Origin: Candidatus Poribacteria bacterium
GTDB lineage: Bacteria > Poribacteria > WGA-4E > WGA-3G
Direction: 5' to 3'
Assembly: GCA_021295715.1 (NCBI GenBank)
Contig: JAGWBV010000025.1
Location: 1 to 44,242 of the forward strand
Length of the DNA: 44,242 bases
Within the stretch, counting starts at the first letter, position 1; each line of letters begins with the position of its first letter. Made by a program: the position numbers and the translations under genes. Shown in pieces: positions 17,664 to 26,005 of the stretch. Below the pieces are notes generated by a model. The model was not told the DNA's origin, did no database searches, and saw only the letters and a list, made by a program, of their open reading frames with translations.

Positions 17664-18539
17664 CTACGAATTGGTGTTTGATTGAGTTTGACCATTACTT
17701 GCTTGGCGTATGCGTTCTGCTTCCCGAACTGCTTTACGCAATCGCCTTTTCAAGCTATTATGGTTGCGGGTTTTCACCAGTTGCCAGACGACTCTTGAGA
17801 GATAGAGTCTGATTTCGTCATTTGGAATGCTTTTACCGACTACCTTACTTATAAAACGTCTCATGATGCCAAAGGCGAGGTGTCCGGGAAGTAAGTTGAT
17901 GAGGCACTGGTCTCTTAAATATTTTTCAACCAAATTTTTTGCGTCATCAATGCCTTCTATGTCAATACCCTCAGCAGCTGCCTCTTGCTGTTTTTGAATT
18001 TGATTGTCTTGGAAGCGTGCCTTGAAAAATCTGTCCGGGGTCTGGAAAAAGGTCTTCTGTCCTGTTTTTGAACGCTGATGTGCTACATCCAATATGAGCC
18101 AATCCTTAAATTTTACTTCAATATCCTCAGCAAAATCCTTAAATTCATCGCTTGCTAAGGGTTCTTCCAAACTATCCTCTGAAGGCACACGATCGCGACA
18201 GAATTGTTTTATTCGCTCTTCCTCAAAAAGATAATTTTCATAAGAATGTCGATGCAGCAAAACGATTCGCCTATGTTGACTGCGAACGCGCTCTAAAATG
18301 TCGTAATGTCCATCCAGAATAACAACATAAGGATAGTTGTCTTGTCCAAGAAACGTTGCTAACTTTTCACACTCCGGTTTTCCATTTTTCGCTTTTACTC
18401 GACAATTATAATTTTGGAGAATCGCATTATAGAAGGGAATGTCGGTGTACCCCTCAACATAAACAAGGATTTCTGAAAAAAAAAGATATTCTGCGGATAA
18501 CCCCGATGGGGTTCGGGAAAACGACATTAACTTTCTCAC
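17664..18539 (-). CDS. DUF4435/TOPRIM-like nuclease, AriB-like partner of the ATPase (candidate PARIS effector)
   Basis: A 291-residue protein with the layout of the TOPRIM-like DUF4435 family. A conserved glutamate lies in ILVYVEGYTDIPFYNAIL (E29). A hydrophobic strand ending in two aspartates follows (VVILDGHYD, D76 and D80), then HRHSYENYLF (98-104), which matches the family's H-x-x-ENYL motif. The GTG start overlaps the ATPase stop by four bases (GTGA), so the two are made together; an ATG four codons later is an alternative. The pair ATPase + DUF4435 is the composition of PARIS (AriA/AriB), where AriB is a toxic nuclease released by AriA when a phage anti-restriction protein is sensed. 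The function here is inferred from that family. The C-terminus is highly basic. OLD-family pairs are an alternative. Confidence 0.7.
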   Translation of the reverse strand: MRKLMSFSRTPSGLSAEYLFFSEILVYVEGYTDIPFYNAILQNYNCRVKAKNGKPECEKLATFLGQDNYPYVVILDGHYDILERVRSQHRRIVLLHRHSYENYLFEEERIKQFCRDRVPSEDSLEEPLASDEFKDFAEDIEVKFKDWLILDVAHQRSKTGQKTFFQTPDRFFKARFQDNQIQKQQEAAAEGIDIEGIDDAKNLVEKYLRDQCLINLLPGHLAFGIMRRFISKVVGKSIPNDEIRLYLSRVVWQLVKTRNHNSLKRRLRKAVREAERIRQASNGQTQSNTNS

Positions 18540-19831
18540 ACCAACTCTATCACTTTATCCTGAAATTTGCCAACAATATCGGGGGAGTGCATGGCGACGA
18601 TTATCTGTTTCTGTCCGCCGAGTGTTACCAGAGATTCCAACAGTTTCTCCTGCCAAGTGACGTGGAGTGACAATTCCGGTTCATCCGCGATATAAACCAC
18701 TGGCTCATCAACCTTAAGTAAAGCTTCAGTGAGTAAAATTAGAATCTGTTTTTCACCTGAAGAGAGATAGTGCCAATTTAGGTCTGAAGACGAAGGAGAG
18801 TCAATTTTTAAATTACCATTCTCATCAACCTTAACGAACGTACCATTCATGAACGAATTAACAGTTTCTCCATGACTGCTCAAAAACATATTAACAATTT
18901 CTTCATAACGTCGTAAAGGTGCGAAGATTTTCTCTCTATCTTCTTCAAGTTTCCTCGCATATTCCACCATAGTTTTCGTTCGATCAATAAGCGGAAGCAC
19001 AAGTATGTCCTCCATTCCAAAAACACCAGGATTTTCGCGAATACGTTTCACCACTTTCTCTGCAGCAGCAAAATGCTCATTAATCCTATTGTGTATCTGT
19101 TTGTTTAAGAGCCCGGATGCTTCAAAAGCTCTAAGTAATTGAACCTTTTCCGCTTCCGTTGGCAATGAAGGAGTCAAATCCAGCCGATCAAACTCTTTAC
19201 TATAAAGAATTATCGATAGGACTTGATGTTCAAATGCCTTGTAACGTTCAGAAAGTTGCGCGTTTAAACGAGAGTGATAGTGGAAGAGTTCTTCTAACAA
19301 TTCCTCAAGTCGTAAGTCGACCGACTCCAAATCCTGTGTTCTGGTATATCGTTCTTCTTCATTTTCTCTTACAGGTAAACGACGGTTTACAGGAAGCCAA
19401 ATCAAAGAAACTGAGGCAGTTAATTCGCTATCAAGATCCTTTGATAGCATGTTCCTGATAACGTTATCTCTTTGATGAAAATACTGGAGAGAGGAAGGAA
19501 TGGGCTTTCCGTGAAAAAAAAAATTGGTAGGGAACCTTTGTTCTTTCGGCCCTACTTTGAGTTTCAAAAATTCATCTCCAATATCAAACCTAATAGTGCG
19601 GACAGAATTACCTTTGAAACTTCTCAGTCCGATTTTTACATGCTCAAAGCTAACCTTTAAGATACTGAGTAGATCGCCTGATAATATAGTATGGAGGAGA
19701 TTCAAAATAGTGGTTTTGCCAGAACCGTTCGGACCTATCAGTACATTCACATCCCTGTTAAAGGTTAGATCGATGTCTCGGTAACCCCATAAATTAGTTA
19801 TCTTAAGAGACTCAATAAAATATTTACGCAT
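18536..19831 (-). CDS. ABC/SMC-like AAA ATPase, AriA-like (candidate PARIS sensor)
   Basis: A 432-residue ATPase of the AAA_15/AAA_21 kind. The N-terminal FIESLKITNLWGYRDIDLTF precedes Walker A (LIGPNGSGKTT, 32-41). A middle helical section carries HQRDNVIRNM and WLPVNRRLP. The ABC-type signature YLSSGEKQILIL lies near residue 354, then Walker B VVYIADEPELSLH near 380 and a switch histidine in VAMHSPDIVG. I start at the ATG at 19831 because AGGGGA lies 8 bases upstream; the longer frame to 19933 would start across the promoter. The gene has its own predicted promoter and reads straight into the AriB-like gene. Base use looks more AT-rich than flanking genes, consistent with horizontal transfer (by eye). 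Confidence 0.8.
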   Translation of the reverse strand: MRKYFIESLKITNLWGYRDIDLTFNRDVNVLIGPNGSGKTTILNLLHTILSGDLLSILKVSFEHVKIGLRSFKGNSVRTIRFDIGDEFLKLKVGPKEQRFPTNFFFHGKPIPSSLQYFHQRDNVIRNMLSKDLDSELTASVSLIWLPVNRRLPVRENEEERYTRTQDLESVDLRLEELLEELFHYHSRLNAQLSERYKAFEHQVLSIILYSKEFDRLDLTPSLPTEAEKVQLLRAFEASGLLNKQIHNRINEHFAAAEKVVKRIRENPGVFGMEDILVLPLIDRTKTMVEYARKLEEDREKIFAPLRRYEEIVNMFLSSHGETVNSFMNGTFVKVDENGNLKIDSPSSSDLNWHYLSSGEKQILILLTEALLKVDEPVVYIADEPELSLHVTWQEKLLESLVTLGGQKQIIVAMHSPDIVGKFQDKVIELV

Positions 19832-19904
19832 GACACGTCCCCTGTTGTTTAACGACAAACCTTTAAAAACTTTTAATCCCGCCCTGTTGCAATCAATTGC
19901 TAAG

Positions 19905-19933
19905 ATTATAGCACATTTGACCAGAAAAGACAA
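19905..19933 (-). promoter_or_regulatory. Predicted promoter for the ATPase/TOPRIM pair
   Basis: Minus-strand TTGTCT (19933-19928), a 17-base spacer ending in TGTGC, then a perfect TATAAT (19910-19905). The start codon is about 75 bases further on. Confidence 0.6.
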
Positions 19934-20522: not shown

Positions 20523-21245
20523 CTATGCCAAAAAACGGTGGTAGATAAGGGTTGTGAGGATTTTGTAACCCGCTTTGAGAGTACCAGTGAAGGTGCCAGT
20601 GATTTTAGAGACCCCAATTCGCTTGCGATAGCGAACCGGAATTTCACACACAGGGATTCCCTGTTTCGCGGCTTTGAGTTGCATCTCGACCGTCCATCCG
20701 AAGGTTTTGTCCTGCATGTTCAAAGCGAGAAGCTGCGGGTACCGGATCGCTCGAAAGGGTCCTAAATCTGTATAACGCACGCCGTAGAGGCACTTTATCA
20801 AGAAACAGGCAAGCCAATTGCCGAACCGCGCTTGGGGTAACAACACATCACGTGCGCTGTCCGCGCTTCTCGCTCCAACGACAAAGGCGGTGTTGCCTTC
20901 AAGTATCGGGTGGAGGAGCTGCGGCATGTCTGTCGGATAGTCGCTATAGTCGCCATCAAGAAAAACGACGATATCCGGCTCGGTCGTCGTGACCGCAGCA
21001 ATTCCGGCGAGACAAGCGGATCCATATCCGCGTCGGGGTTCTGTTATGACCCTTGCCCCGTTTCGGCTTGCGATTGCGGCGGTGTTGTCCGTGCAGCCGT
21101 TGTCAACAACGATAATTTCTTGGACTGCGGCTTCGGTTTTTCCGTCAAGAGTCCGTACGGTCTTTGGAATATCGGTGATGACTTTGGCAATGGCGTTTTC
21201 CTCATTGAGGACTGGAATGATGACCGAAATCTTTTGTGATGGCAT
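20523..21245 (-). CDS. GT2-family glycosyltransferase (dolichyl-phosphate-mannose-synthase-like)
   Basis: A 240-residue soluble GT-A transferase. It shows SVIIPVLNEENAIAKVI at the start, EIIVVDNGCTDNTA near residue 45, EPRRGYGSACLAGI, the metal-binding VFLDGDYSDYP near residue 95, and a C-terminal EIPVRYRKRIGVSKI. This resembles the DPM1-like group that moves sugars onto lipid carriers or into envelope glycans. The donor and acceptor are unknown, and no membrane segment is evident. The ATG follows the MoxR stop without a gap (TAGATG), so translation is probably coupled. Confidence 0.88.
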   Translation of the reverse strand: MPSQKISVIIPVLNEENAIAKVITDIPKTVRTLDGKTEAAVQEIIVVDNGCTDNTAAIASRNGARVITEPRRGYGSACLAGIAAVTTTEPDIVVFLDGDYSDYPTDMPQLLHPILEGNTAFVVGARSADSARDVLLPQARFGNWLACFLIKCLYGVRYTDLGPFRAIRYPQLLALNMQDKTFGWTVEMQLKAAKQGIPVCEIPVRYRKRIGVSKITGTFTGTLKAGYKILTTLIYHRFLA

Positions 21246-22253
21246 CTACAACCTTGCAGCGGGTTCCTGCACTGTGTCGAGTAGACGTTGGATGACGGTG
21301 TCGGAGTCAATACCTTCAGCTTCGGCATGGAAATTGGTTAAGACGCGATGGCGTAGCACCGCAGGTGCGACAGATTTCACGTCTTCACAAGAAGCGTTGT
21401 AACGACCTCGTAGGATCGCTCGCGCTTTCGCGCCTAAGATGAGATACTGCCCGGCACGCGGTCCCGCGCCCCATCGGACCCATTGCTGGATGAAATCGGG
21501 AACGTCCTCCTCTTTTGGACGGGTTGCGCGCGCAATTTTCACGGCGTATTGCACGACGTTGTCGGCGGCAGGCACACGCCTAACAATTTTATGGAGTGCC
21601 ACGATCGCCTCACCGGAGAGTGCTGTTTCGAGTTCAGGTTCCTCTGCGCCAGTTGTTGCTGAAACGATGTCCGTCTCCTCTGATTCTGTCGGGTAATCTA
21701 TGACGATTTTGAACATGAACCGGTCTAACTGCGCTTCTGGAAGTGGGTATGTTCCCTCCTGCTCGATCGGGTTTTGCGTGGCAAGCACAAAGAAGGGTTG
21801 TTCCAGATGGAATTCGTTCCCACCGGCGGTGACGTGGTGTTCCTGCATCGCCTCTAAGAGTGCGGCTTGTGTCTTCGGCGGTGTCCGATTGATTTCATCC
21901 GCGAGGAGGATGTTCGCGAAGATGGGTCCCTGAATAAATCGGATCGTGCGATGTCCAGTTTTCCGGTCTTCTTCGAGGACATCGGTTCCTGTGATGTCGG
22001 CTGGCATTAGGTCGGGGGTGAACTGGATTCGCTTGAATTTGAGATTCAGAATGTCTGCCAAAGTTCTAATCATGAGGGTTTTGGCAAGCCCTGGGACACC
22101 CTCTAATAAGCAGTGTCCTCCAGCAAAAAGTGCCATCAACATCTGATTGATAACGTCCTCTTGCCCAACGATTACCTTTTTGAGTTGCTCTAAAATCAGC
22201 TCTTGGCTTTTCATCAACTCTTCTATTGCTTGAACTTCTTCTGTTGCTGGCAT
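21246..22253 (-). CDS. MoxR-family AAA+ ATPase
   Basis: A 335-residue AAA+ chaperone-like ATPase. Walker A is EGVPGLAKT (51-59), Walker B is [20 protein letters not shown], sensor 1 is [28 protein letters not shown], and the C-terminal lid has [16 protein letters not shown]. MoxR ATPases usually work with von Willebrand A-domain proteins and DUF58 partners to mature or remodel other proteins. Here no such partner is next door. It sits between the pseudo-caspase/transglutaminase gene and GT2. The ATG is preceded by GGAGGCC and an ATAATTTAAAAA tract. Confidence 0.93.
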
Positions 22254-22380: not shown

Positions 22381-25300
22381 CTATTGTGTCAATATGAATC
22401 GTTTCGGTCCTCGATTTGAGGCGATTCTGACGACCTCTTTGAGATGCTGAATGTTGTCCGGTGTGACCCTCGGGGTCAAGAAACGGATCGTTTGATGCAT
22501 CTCCGCTTTTCGCTTGGATTGCGAATAGCGGATCTGTATCTCTGCGACCTCGGTATTCAACGTCTGCTCCTCAGGAACGGTATCAATCCGAAAGGGAGCA
22601 TCCGTGCTGACACTGATCTTGTCCTCAAGCGTTAATGCCTTACCAATGACGGCGGGATACATCCGGCGTTCCTCGCTCAGTAACTCGGCATAAGGGTGCT
22701 TGACGATCGGTAATTCAAGGACAAATTGACTGCCGATCGCGTACAAATACTCCTTACATGTCCATGTAACGTCAACCTTCAATTCGCCGTCCAACTTTGA
22801 AAGTCCAGAGACTTCGACCGCCGTCACCTTGGCACGTTCGTCCAATTCTAACGCTTTGTGGAAAAACTCCGCTTTTTCCTCAGAAGTCTGCAGATGTGAA
22901 AGTTGGCTTCGGAGTTTCATGTTAAAAATCCCTGTTACCGTCAACGCTTGGCGAACAGAGACGCTCATATCCTTTTTCACCGCTACGCGGGTGTGAACGC
23001 GCTTCAGATTCGATGTTGCATCGATGGATGGACTTTTCTGAAAGAGGTAAAGCCTATTTTCCATTGCATGGCTATTGTCAGTCGGCGGTGGACTATCGGT
23101 CTCCGAACCCTGACGGTTCTCTGTCAGAAACTGTGGATTGATAATCAGTGCCCACCTGTCTTGGTCGCCCGCAGGGAAATCCCCAAAAGCGCACGTCTCT
23201 GCTGTCGGATCGAGCCAGATGAATTCATCATCTTGGTTTCCGCTGTCAACAGCGAGGATCATGTGGTTGAAATAGGCAAGTGAAGGCACTGCCTCGACCT
23301 CCGAACCACCGTCTGGAAGATGGGCGTTAACGCCGCGCGTATCGCCAGCGGAAATGAGAACAGGATAGGAATTAATACCTACGGATGAAAGCATCGTAGA
23401 GAGGAGTGTCGTTTTGTCCTTGCAATCCCCTTTCCCGACTTTCAGAACGAAGTCCGCTGGATACGGCTTAATTGCCCAGATACCGAGCTCATAGCCGAGA
23501 TACTGGATGTTCGTTGCGACGTATTCGTAAAGTCGTTTTACTTTCTCCTTTCGGGTCCAGGCACCGCTGAGGATTTTCTCGGTCTTTTTCGTGATTTCTG
23601 GTGTAATGGTGTCCTGCTCCCGAATGAGCGTCGCATACCATGTCACTAATTTATCCCAAGAATCAATTGAGGAGATACTAATGCTATAAGCGAGATCCTG
23701 AGGAGCAGGCATCAGGTATTCCTCTCTCAAAGGCGGGACATTTTGCACTTCAAAGGTATAGGTGCGGATGTAGTTATTCTCGGTAATTGTGGGTTCAATA
23801 TTAAGAACAGAAGCACTTGATTGTAAATCTGTTGTAACCTCCGGCGCACCTGAAACCTGATAATAGAGTTCCTTCTTCTTCGGGATATGGACGGTGAACC
23901 GATAGTATTGCACGGGTTGTGAGCCTTGGAAATAGACCTTACGCCAAAACTCACCCCGCATAACATGCCCAAGATTGTTCGTGGAATACGCATAATCTAT
24001 GATACAGCCATCGGAGATTTCTGGAAGTGAAAAATACATCAAGCGTGCATCGACGTATAAACCTGCGTCCACAGCACTCGGCGGTGGGATATTCGTTACC
24101 ACATCAGTCAAATCGAGTTCCACAACTCTGCCATCAGGCGTAACTGTCCGGGCATGATGGATCGTGACATCGTCTTTTCCACGCATATAAGGGATGCTAA
24201 TTTCGCCAAGAGCCGCGCCATCTTCATTGAAGATTTTGGCGACGCGCCGTGTGGAATAGATATAACGACTCTTTTCATCAATGTCCACATCAACACTTTC
24301 CCAAAGCACGACAGCACCGTCTTCAGGATAGTCCTTTTCAGAGGGTGCCGTGTCAATGGCTGCTTGGATGACGTTCTCATCCGCTTTGCTGATATAGTCG
24401 TAGGGCAGTGACGATGGACGGTTCTCAGTGTTGTGAATGGCAGTCGAAGTCTCTGAATTCTCCTGTTCATGCGCTTCGGGTGATTCCGTAGGTGGCACGT
24501 CGGCGAAGATTTCATCAGATTCAGGTGCCGATCGGGGGCTTGGGAGGACTGTTCGACGGGTCCCTAAGAATGTTTTTGCGGCGAGTGCGCCATCCTCTGT
24601 CTCTTCTACACCCGCGCTCTCAGGGTCAATCGTTAGGTTTCGAGTGGCGTTTCCATCGCCATTATCATCGAGATGCGGATGTTCAGATTGAATCGTTCTG
24701 TTGTTCTCATACCATTCCTTCGTCCGCGTCTGCAGCGAGAAGAACGCTTCTAAGAGTGAAATGTCTCCATCGATATTTATATCGTTATCTGCTGTAGAGA
24801 AGGCATCAACAAAGACGTCGCCGAATCCTGCCTGTAGTGAATAGCCTTCATTTGGTGAACTTGAGGTGAGGATTATACGTCCCGGTGCACTGAGTTGCGA
24901 CACAAGTCGTCCACTATAGGGGAAGCCAAAGATTAGAATCTGATTCTCAGCAGGAATACTGTTAATGAGTGTCACATATTCCACTTCGGTAATGTCCCGT
25001 CCCCGCAGATTAAACTTCGCACTACCTCTACCGGTGCGAGATGCGTGCCCCAGCATGAACAGCAGAAATCGATCCGATGGTTGCACAGTCTTGACAAGTT
25101 GATCGAATGCGGCTAAAACCTGTTCGCGATTCGATTCCGCGTCAACGAGTTCCAATGCTCCGTGTCCACTTTGGTCTGTATCGCCTATATCTTCAAAGAG
25201 AAAAGTAATCTGGTCGGGCGAGTAGCCGTATTCATCGGTGAGCAACTGATGGAACCGAGAGGTGGCACCCCAGAACGCGTCGTAAAAGGATTTTTCACCC

Positions 25301-25392
25301 GCAACACCGCCAATAATCAGGACGTGATTGGCGGCAAAGGTGGTTGTAGAAATTAGACAAAGGGCAAGGATAATGATAAATATCTGACGCAT
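22381..25392 (-). CDS. Secreted pseudo-caspase / DUF3857 / transglutaminase-like fusion
   Basis: A signal peptide (residues 1-20) is followed by a C13/caspase-like domain (21-230) with the expected histidine in FMLGHAS (H116). The position where the family has catalytic Cys (x-Cys-x-SG) reads GFPYSG, with Pro158, so it is probably inactive as a protease. A Pro/Glu/Ser-rich linker (about 265-330) leads into a DUF3857-like beta domain (about 340-520). A transglutaminase-like domain follows with Cys about 657 (GKGDCKDKTTLL), His about 711 (YFNHMILAVD) and Asp about 728 (WLDPTAE), so that triad looks intact. A C-terminal beta domain ends the protein. DUF3857-transglutaminase proteins are periplasmic or secreted; the substrate is unknown. 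A run near ENRQGSETDSPPPTDNSH is encoded by simple-repeat-like DNA. moxR is downstream. Confidence 0.85.
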   Translation of the reverse strand: MRQIFIIILALCLISTTTFAANHVLIIGGVAGEKSFYDAFWGATSRFHQLLTDEYGYSPDQITFLFEDIGDTDQSGHGALELVDAESNREQVLAAFDQLVKTVQPSDRFLLFMLGHASRTGRGSAKFNLRGRDITEVEYVTLINSIPAENQILIFGFPYSGRLVSQLSAPGRIILTSSSPNEGYSLQAGFGDVFVDAFSTADNDINIDGDISLLEAFFSLQTRTKEWYENNRTIQSEHPHLDDNGDGNATRNLTIDPESAGVEETEDGALAAKTFLGTRRTVLPSPRSAPESDEIFADVPPTESPEAHEQENSETSTAIHNTENRPSSLPYDYISKADENVIQAAIDTAPSEKDYPEDGAVVLWESVDVDIDEKSRYIYSTRRVAKIFNEDGAALGEISIPYMRGKDDVTIHHARTVTPDGRVVELDLTDVVTNIPPPSAVDAGLYVDARLMYFSLPEISDGCIIDYAYSTNNLGHVMRGEFWRKVYFQGSQPVQYYRFTVHIPKKKELYYQVSGAPEVTTDLQSSASVLNIEPTITENNYIRTYTFEVQNVPPLREEYLMPAPQDLAYSISISSIDSWDKLVTWYATLIREQDTITPEITKKTEKILSGAWTRKEKVKRLYEYVATNIQYLGYELGIWAIKPYPADFVLKVGKGDCKDKTTLLSTMLSSVGINSYPVLISAGDTRGVNAHLPDGGSEVEAVPSLAYFNHMILAVDSGNQDDEFIWLDPTAETCAFGDFPAGDQDRWALIINPQFLTENRQGSETDSPPPTDNSHAMENRLYLFQKSPSIDATSNLKRVHTRVAVKKDMSVSVRQALTVTGIFNMKLRSQLSHLQTSEEKAEFFHKALELDERAKVTAVEVSGLSKLDGELKVDVTWTCKEYLYAIGSQFVLELPIVKHPYAELLSEERRMYPAVIGKALTLEDKISVSTDAPFRIDTVPEEQTLNTEVAEIQIRYSQSKRKAEMHQTIRFLTPRVTPDNIQHLKEVVRIASNRGPKRFILTQ

Positions 25393-25513: not shown

Positions 25514-26005
25514 TTACCGACTATCGACGACTGGTGACTGATAACTATTCTTACCACCTGTTTTTTTGACAAGCCTGACATCACCGATAACCATTTCCCT
25601 GTCCACTGCCTTACACATATCATAAACCGTCAAAGCAGCGACGGATACGGCAGTGAGTGCTTCCATTTCCACGCCTGTGCGCCCCACAGTCTGGACTTCT
25701 GCTTCAATTTCGACCTGCGGCACGTCATCTGCGATAGCGAGTTCAACGCGAATCGAAGTCAATGCGAGAGGATGACACAGCGGGATGAGTTCACCTGTGC
25801 GTTTCGCTGCCATGATCCCCGCAAGCCGTGCAACCTCTAAAACATCACCCTTCTTCATACCTTGTTCAGCGATGAGACGGAGTGTTTCAGGACGGGCAGT
25901 AATATGCCCATGGGCGATGGCGATGCGCAGTGTTTCGTCTTTGCCACCGACATCCACCATTCGGGTGTTGCCTTTTTCGTCAAAGTGCGTTAGTTTTTCT
26001 TTCAT
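25514..26005 (-). CDS. moaC: Cyclic pyranopterin monophosphate synthase (MoaC)
   Basis: Cytosolic enzyme of molybdenum cofactor synthesis that converts the MoaA product into cyclic pyranopterin monophosphate. Visible motifs are [57 protein letters not shown] and RLVKKTGGK. The length of 163 residues is normal. The last residues (QSPVVDSR) come from a CACCAGTCGTCGATAGTCGG simple repeat instead of the usual short SG.. end. The start is preceded by CCATTAAAAA. It lies 17 bases after the sugar kinase. No other moa gene is in the window, so the neighbours do not explain it. Confidence 0.95.

Follow-up and report, generated by a model that had tools for sequence, protein, structure and literature searches.

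The window analysed here, a 44,242-nucleotide stretch of contig JAGWBV010000025.1 from a Candidatus Poribacteria genome of 5.1 Mb in 175 contigs, contains on its reverse strand an open reading frame with an ATG start (22381-25392(-)) that encodes a 1003-aa protein joining a peptidase-fold domain to a transglutaminase-like unit. The sole hydrophobic stretch of this fusion protein, residues 3-21, corresponds to a signal peptide at residues about 1-20 (MRQIFIIILALCLISTTTFA; 25333..25392(-)), in which A20 is near-invariant among relatives, and the protein is predicted to be secreted or exported. There follow a pseudo-C13 (legumain/caspase-fold) domain (residues about 22-250; 24643..25329(-)), in which His116 is present and Pro158 replaces the catalytic Cys, a linker under low constraint (residues about 251-335; 24388..24642(-)), DUF3857 (residues 378-555; 23728..24261(-)), a transglutaminase-like core (residues about 604-760; 23113..23583(-)), and a DUF3858-like C-terminal beta domain (residues about 780-1003; 22384..23055(-)). 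Pfam matched DUF3857 (E 7e-31) and Transglut_core (residues 604-675, E 2e-7), both above its cut-offs; the N-terminal part had no match in Pfam and the whole protein none in NCBIfam. Downstream, separated from the fusion gene by 127 bp, lies its conserved neighbour, a MoxR AAA+ ATPase gene (21246..22253(-)), which is abutted by a GT2 glycosyltransferase gene (20523..21245(-)), while moaC (25514..26005(-)) is the conserved upstream neighbour. The window also contains, at 17664-19933(-), two genes that lie side by side and overlap; their products, an AAA_15 ATPase and a DUF4435 protein, give matches to AriA (E 2e-36) and AriB (E 1e-13), respectively, from the anti-phage system PARIS.

The N-terminal domain has a caspase-like fold in an AlphaFold model built from 31 homologues (pLDDT 78, moderate confidence). 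The best Foldseek match was yeast metacaspase 4f6p (E 5e-8), followed by plant legumain 6l4y and GPI transamidase 7wld, all with a probability of 1.00, and a search of PDB profiles agreed, returning metacaspase-1 (E 5e-5). Eight Cys-bearing relatives, seven of them matched by Pfam C13 (one of these just below the cut-off), served as the reference set for the active site. Since hhalign aligned the 31 homologues with this set at a probability of 99.7 (E 6e-27), pairing GFPYSG with NPCYSG, Pro158 (codon 24919..24921(-)) occupies the clan CD nucleophile position. Across 69 Poribacterial alignment rows, in which a few genes were entered twice, this position is Pro in 63, Gln in 6, and Cys in none, and the GH motif containing His116 is invariant; three deep branches carry DFPFSG and retain the Asp commonly found ahead of this motif. 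The first-pass annotation had described the domain as C13-like, with its histidine motif kept and a proline where the nucleophile belongs, and the modelled fold and the alignments bear this out; the loss of Cys is, moreover, general in Poribacteria. Sequencing error or chance at codon 158 is excluded by the non-Cys state shared by all Poribacterial relatives. The fold and the GH histidine of active clan CD/C13 peptidases are thus present and the catalytic Cys absent, a combination that fits pseudo-clan CD proteins (p20-type fold, substituted His-Cys dyad), and we interpret the domain, as read from its sequence, as a legumain/caspase-fold domain presumably unable to act as a cysteine peptidase.

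This dead domain is kept by strong purifying selection. Comparison of the window gene with four close orthologues gave a dN/dS of 0.08-0.10 for the dead domain and 0.04-0.14 for the transglutaminase core, with higher values (0.31-0.49) for the linker, and 29 columns are invariant across 31 diverse dead-domain sequences; recent decay is ruled out by the low dN/dS. The linker is also less conserved in sequence (mean pairwise identity 36% vs 58% in the dead domain), and its residues 287-332 fall below a pLDDT of 50 in the AlphaFold model of the full-length fusion (pLDDT 74, moderate confidence). At one Poribacterial locus (L067, 4971-8845; G041:C200), a 423-aa N-terminal copy directly precedes a second copy containing a run of X, either through tandem duplication or through an assembly fault.

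The remainder of the protein has the domain order of 3kd4-type proteins, and the full-length model matched 3kd4 (BDI_1141 of Parabacteroides; DUF3857-transglutaminase-DUF3858) over its C-terminal part (Foldseek E 1e-32, TM 0.80 on target). DUF3858 matches fell just below the cut-off in two orthologues (L082, E 6e-6; L083, E 6e-5). The transglutaminase Cys/His/Asp triad, considered complete in the first-pass annotation, is apparently intact, with GDC657K, NH710, and LD728 invariant in 23 diverse full-length sequences. Unlike the fusion protein, 3kd4 has neither the dead C13 domain nor the transglutaminase Cys (the alignment pairs its YGTPLE with the YGDCKD that the Poribacterial family keeps), and 3kd4 itself therefore looks like a pseudo-transglutaminase. 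In a paralogue from the same genome (L101, 5143-7803; G000:C65), TPR repeats stand where the fusion protein has its dead C13 domain; DUF3857 and a transglutaminase whose triad motifs are the same and look intact come next, and the enzyme unit is therefore used with different N-terminal domains.

A periplasmic transglutaminase domain with a conserved triad, in vitro activity, and an essential role is known from TgpA of Pseudomonas aeruginosa, whose gene is co-transcribed with PA2875-PA2874 (PMC3507681). TgpA shares with the fusion protein its triad-bearing transglutaminase domain but is a membrane protein with another accessory region and no C13 domain. We take PA2875-PA2874 to be MoxR- and DUF58-type genes. 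TgpA shows that periplasmic transglutaminases can matter in the envelope.

Strong matches to the dead domain were found in 67 of 85 Poribacterial genomes, and all 32 related loci returned by a single-sequence contig search were from Poribacteria. In one family (f1), moaC, the fusion gene, and MoxR follow one another in this order wherever flanks extend, mostly with GT2 next; in a second (f3, genus g6), MoxR follows the fusion gene by 10 bp, as in L084; in a third (f4, genus g8), moaC is retained and MoxR lies elsewhere, and MoxR is likewise not adjacent in genus g9 or in f8. Of the MoxR/Bat genes, MoxR alone lies beside the Poribacterial fusion gene, and it does so in families f1 and f3 only. 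Because moaC, which is probably functionally unrelated, is kept beside the fusion gene about as consistently as MoxR, adjacency by itself is weak evidence; the MoxR linkage nonetheless spans two families and thus has depth, while the GT2 linkage, limited to one, has none. The first-pass annotation had taken the MoxR and GT2 neighbours together as a hint of envelope remodelling: its MoxR half stands, both in these two families and in the MoxR/Bat operons outside the phylum described below, its GT2 half is weak, and a role in envelope remodelling may be suggested by the former.

The window MoxR scores as a classical AAA_3 protein (214 bits vs 46 for bpMoxR), and the adjacent genes examined include none for a vWA protein; membership in a VMAP/bpMoxR conflict system is therefore rejected. 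A defence role for the fusion protein was likewise set aside after PADLOC returned no match for it or for its MoxR. There is no DUF58 gene beside the window MoxR, the DUF58 genes of this genome being located elsewhere. In a phylogenetic tree, the window MoxR fell into one group with the MoxRs of Bat operons and a few paralogues from Poribacteria, separate from the other paralogues (96/99 support); the tree does not fix the branching order within this group. Poribacterial genomes also carry GATase1-like, DUF4159, and DUF4175-like genes together; a pseudo-C13 gene was sought in these Bat loci and not found.

Beyond Poribacteria, a search with the domain profile recovered stand-alone proteins of ~350-470 aa (E 1e-48 to 1e-25), most with an N-terminal hydrophobic stretch, which are predicted to be secreted. 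Profile-profile comparison aligned the Poribacterial and stand-alone families over 255 columns, including a common stretch after the domain, and placed them closer to each other than either is to Cys-bearing C13 (E 1e-50 vs 6e-27). The tree puts the Poribacterial clade nearer the Cys-bearing rows than these profile scores imply, and is compatible both with one loss of Cys and with two (to Pro in Poribacteria and to Ser in the stand-alone family).

We sampled 52 stand-alone members (the first nine proteins together with three samples taken by phylum), and in 42 of these the gene directly follows one for a GATase1-like membrane protein, whose transmembrane segments lie close to its termini and whose central part is large. 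Where the operon is complete, Pfam reads it as MoxR-DUF58-BatA/vWA-DUF4175-like-GATase1-like-pseudo-C13, with the pseudo-C13 gene last; it is complete or near-complete at five loci (L268, L270, L271, L283, and L284). DUF4159 also occurs upstream in these operons, as does a TPR/peptidase-MA gene in L283, and no pseudo-C13 protein of the stand-alone operons has a transglutaminase in the same polypeptide. Among the 42 GATase1-linked members, the nucleophile position is occupied by Ser (30), Ala (6), Pro (4), Gly (1), or Cys (1), so that 41 are without Cys, compared with Cys in 5 of the 10 unlinked, mostly more distant members (Fisher p 5e-4 for Cys loss versus operon linkage, relatedness among sequences being ignored). 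The sole linked member with an aligned Cys (L225, ORF from about 1405(+); HSACGSDGF) is a possible active or re-evolved case. Two other linked members (L263 and L229) have Pro at the nucleophile position and have also lost the His (GQAN for GHGS).

Several known systems resemble parts of this arrangement. Peptidase C13 (legumain, GPI8; PF01650; clan CD) shares with the dead domain its fold, the GH motif, and the SG after the nucleophile, as reflected in the profile match to Cys-bearing bacterial C13-type domains, but the Poribacterial domain has Pro or Gln for Cys and is fused to DUF3857-transglutaminase. In pseudo-orthocaspases, too, a bacterial caspase-fold domain has been kept in evolution although its His-Cys dyad is broken; the substitutions commonly seen in them are Tyr-Ser, Tyr-Asn, Tyr-Ala, Phe-Ser, Gln-Cys, and His-Ala (PMC6426788), whereas the Poribacterial pairs are His-Pro and His-Gln, in an exported C13-like domain with a transglutaminase fusion, and the word "transglutaminase" is absent from that paper. 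Caspase-fold domains also accompany MoxR in MoxR-vWA conflict systems, where ~70% of the ones that occupy the effector position are described as inactive (PMC7159879), but in those systems the caspase is fused to the vWA part and has VMAP/iSTAND partners, while the pseudo-C13 proteins described here are predicted to be exported and belong to Bat-type operons. The Bat (Bacteroides aerotolerance)/MoxR operons themselves combine MoxR with BatA-type vWA membrane proteins (PMC3557215), and stand-alone pseudo-C13 genes end such operons, whereas the Poribacterial fusion sits outside Bat loci; the Leptospira Bat paper (PMC3557215) mentions neither caspase nor peptidase.

The dead C13 domain is probably a non-cutting recognition or scaffold part of the MoxR/Bat envelope machinery that was fused to a transglutaminase-like enzyme in Poribacteria. 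A caspase fold that is without its nucleophile, exported, and strongly constrained most likely binds a polypeptide, and the dead domain may have been kept as a protein- or peptide-binding module that keeps a substrate or partner in place, or orients it, for the DUF3857-transglutaminase-like enzyme to which it is attached. That enzyme, through Cys657-His710-Asp728, probably cuts or cross-links envelope proteins. The non-catalytic role proposed earlier for the N-terminal domain is supported. In other phyla, the dead domain may represent an old component of MoxR/Bat-type envelope systems, in which the stand-alone pseudo-C13 protein probably docks onto the GATase1-like membrane protein at its periplasmic part. 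The simplest story for Poribacteria would be that the domain left the Bat operon, gained the transglutaminase unit, and kept as its neighbour a MoxR from the subfamily found in Bat operons, which could act on the fusion protein. A broader reading, in which a widespread exported pseudo-legumain family is a standing MoxR/Bat subunit for substrate or peptide recognition without cutting and Poribacteria made a guided enzyme from it by transglutaminase fusion, is tentative and in our judgement falls somewhat short of an even chance.

Alternatively, the N-terminal domain may serve the transglutaminase alone, as an autoinhibitory or positioning pro-domain that is perhaps freed by linker cleavage and has no tie to MoxR/Bat. 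The loose, fast-evolving linker (residues 251-335) is consistent with such a role, as are the TPR-bearing paralogue, in which the enzyme unit accepts another N-terminal domain, and the parts of the phylum in which MoxR is not adjacent; we nevertheless think it unlikely, because it leaves unexplained the stand-alone pseudo-C13 proteins encoded in MoxR/Bat operons with no transglutaminase in the polypeptide. We give less credence still to the idea that the domain remains an enzyme, for example a serine hydrolase or transamidase, and uses another or displaced nucleophile, such as Ser160 or, in the stand-alone family, the Ser that takes the place of Cys. Although His116 and Ser160 are both invariant in Poribacteria and the stand-alone family has Ser more often than any other residue at the nucleophile position, that position is Pro or Gln in Poribacteria and Ala in nine stand-alone members. 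Ser160, moreover, belongs to the CxSG motif, where Cys-bearing relatives have this Ser alongside Cys, and is therefore not a replacement nucleophile. Least probable is that the domain is a vestige, the passive leftover of a fusion with a once-active peptidase: this would account for the lost nucleophile but not for a dN/dS of 0.08-0.10, about as low as in the enzyme part, for the 29 invariant columns, or for retention in 67 of 85 genomes.

Both pseudo-orthocaspases (PMC6426788) and inactive caspase domains near MoxR in conflict systems (PMC7159879) were already known, while the fusion, a secreted C13-like domain with Pro or Gln for Cys, and the consistent link of such domains to MoxR/Bat operons had no published description in the literature searched, which left out most subscription papers. 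The role of the MoxR/Bat operon in the envelope is poorly understood, and a non-cutting protease-fold subunit at the operon end, together with an enzyme-fused lineage, would provide a direct handle on it, suggesting that the MoxR/Bat system recognises periplasmic proteins or peptides and naming a protein pair to test. Our data also add a C13-type, putatively secreted branch to the known bacterial pseudo-caspases, whose relatives in other phyla point to a common non-cutting role for a protease fold. Poribacteria carry, in addition, a second, more degenerate caspase-like family of ~545 aa (L123, L124, L132, L134, and L141), in which, judging from the alignment, neither the His nor the Cys motif seems to survive and one member (L123) has a PEGA domain.
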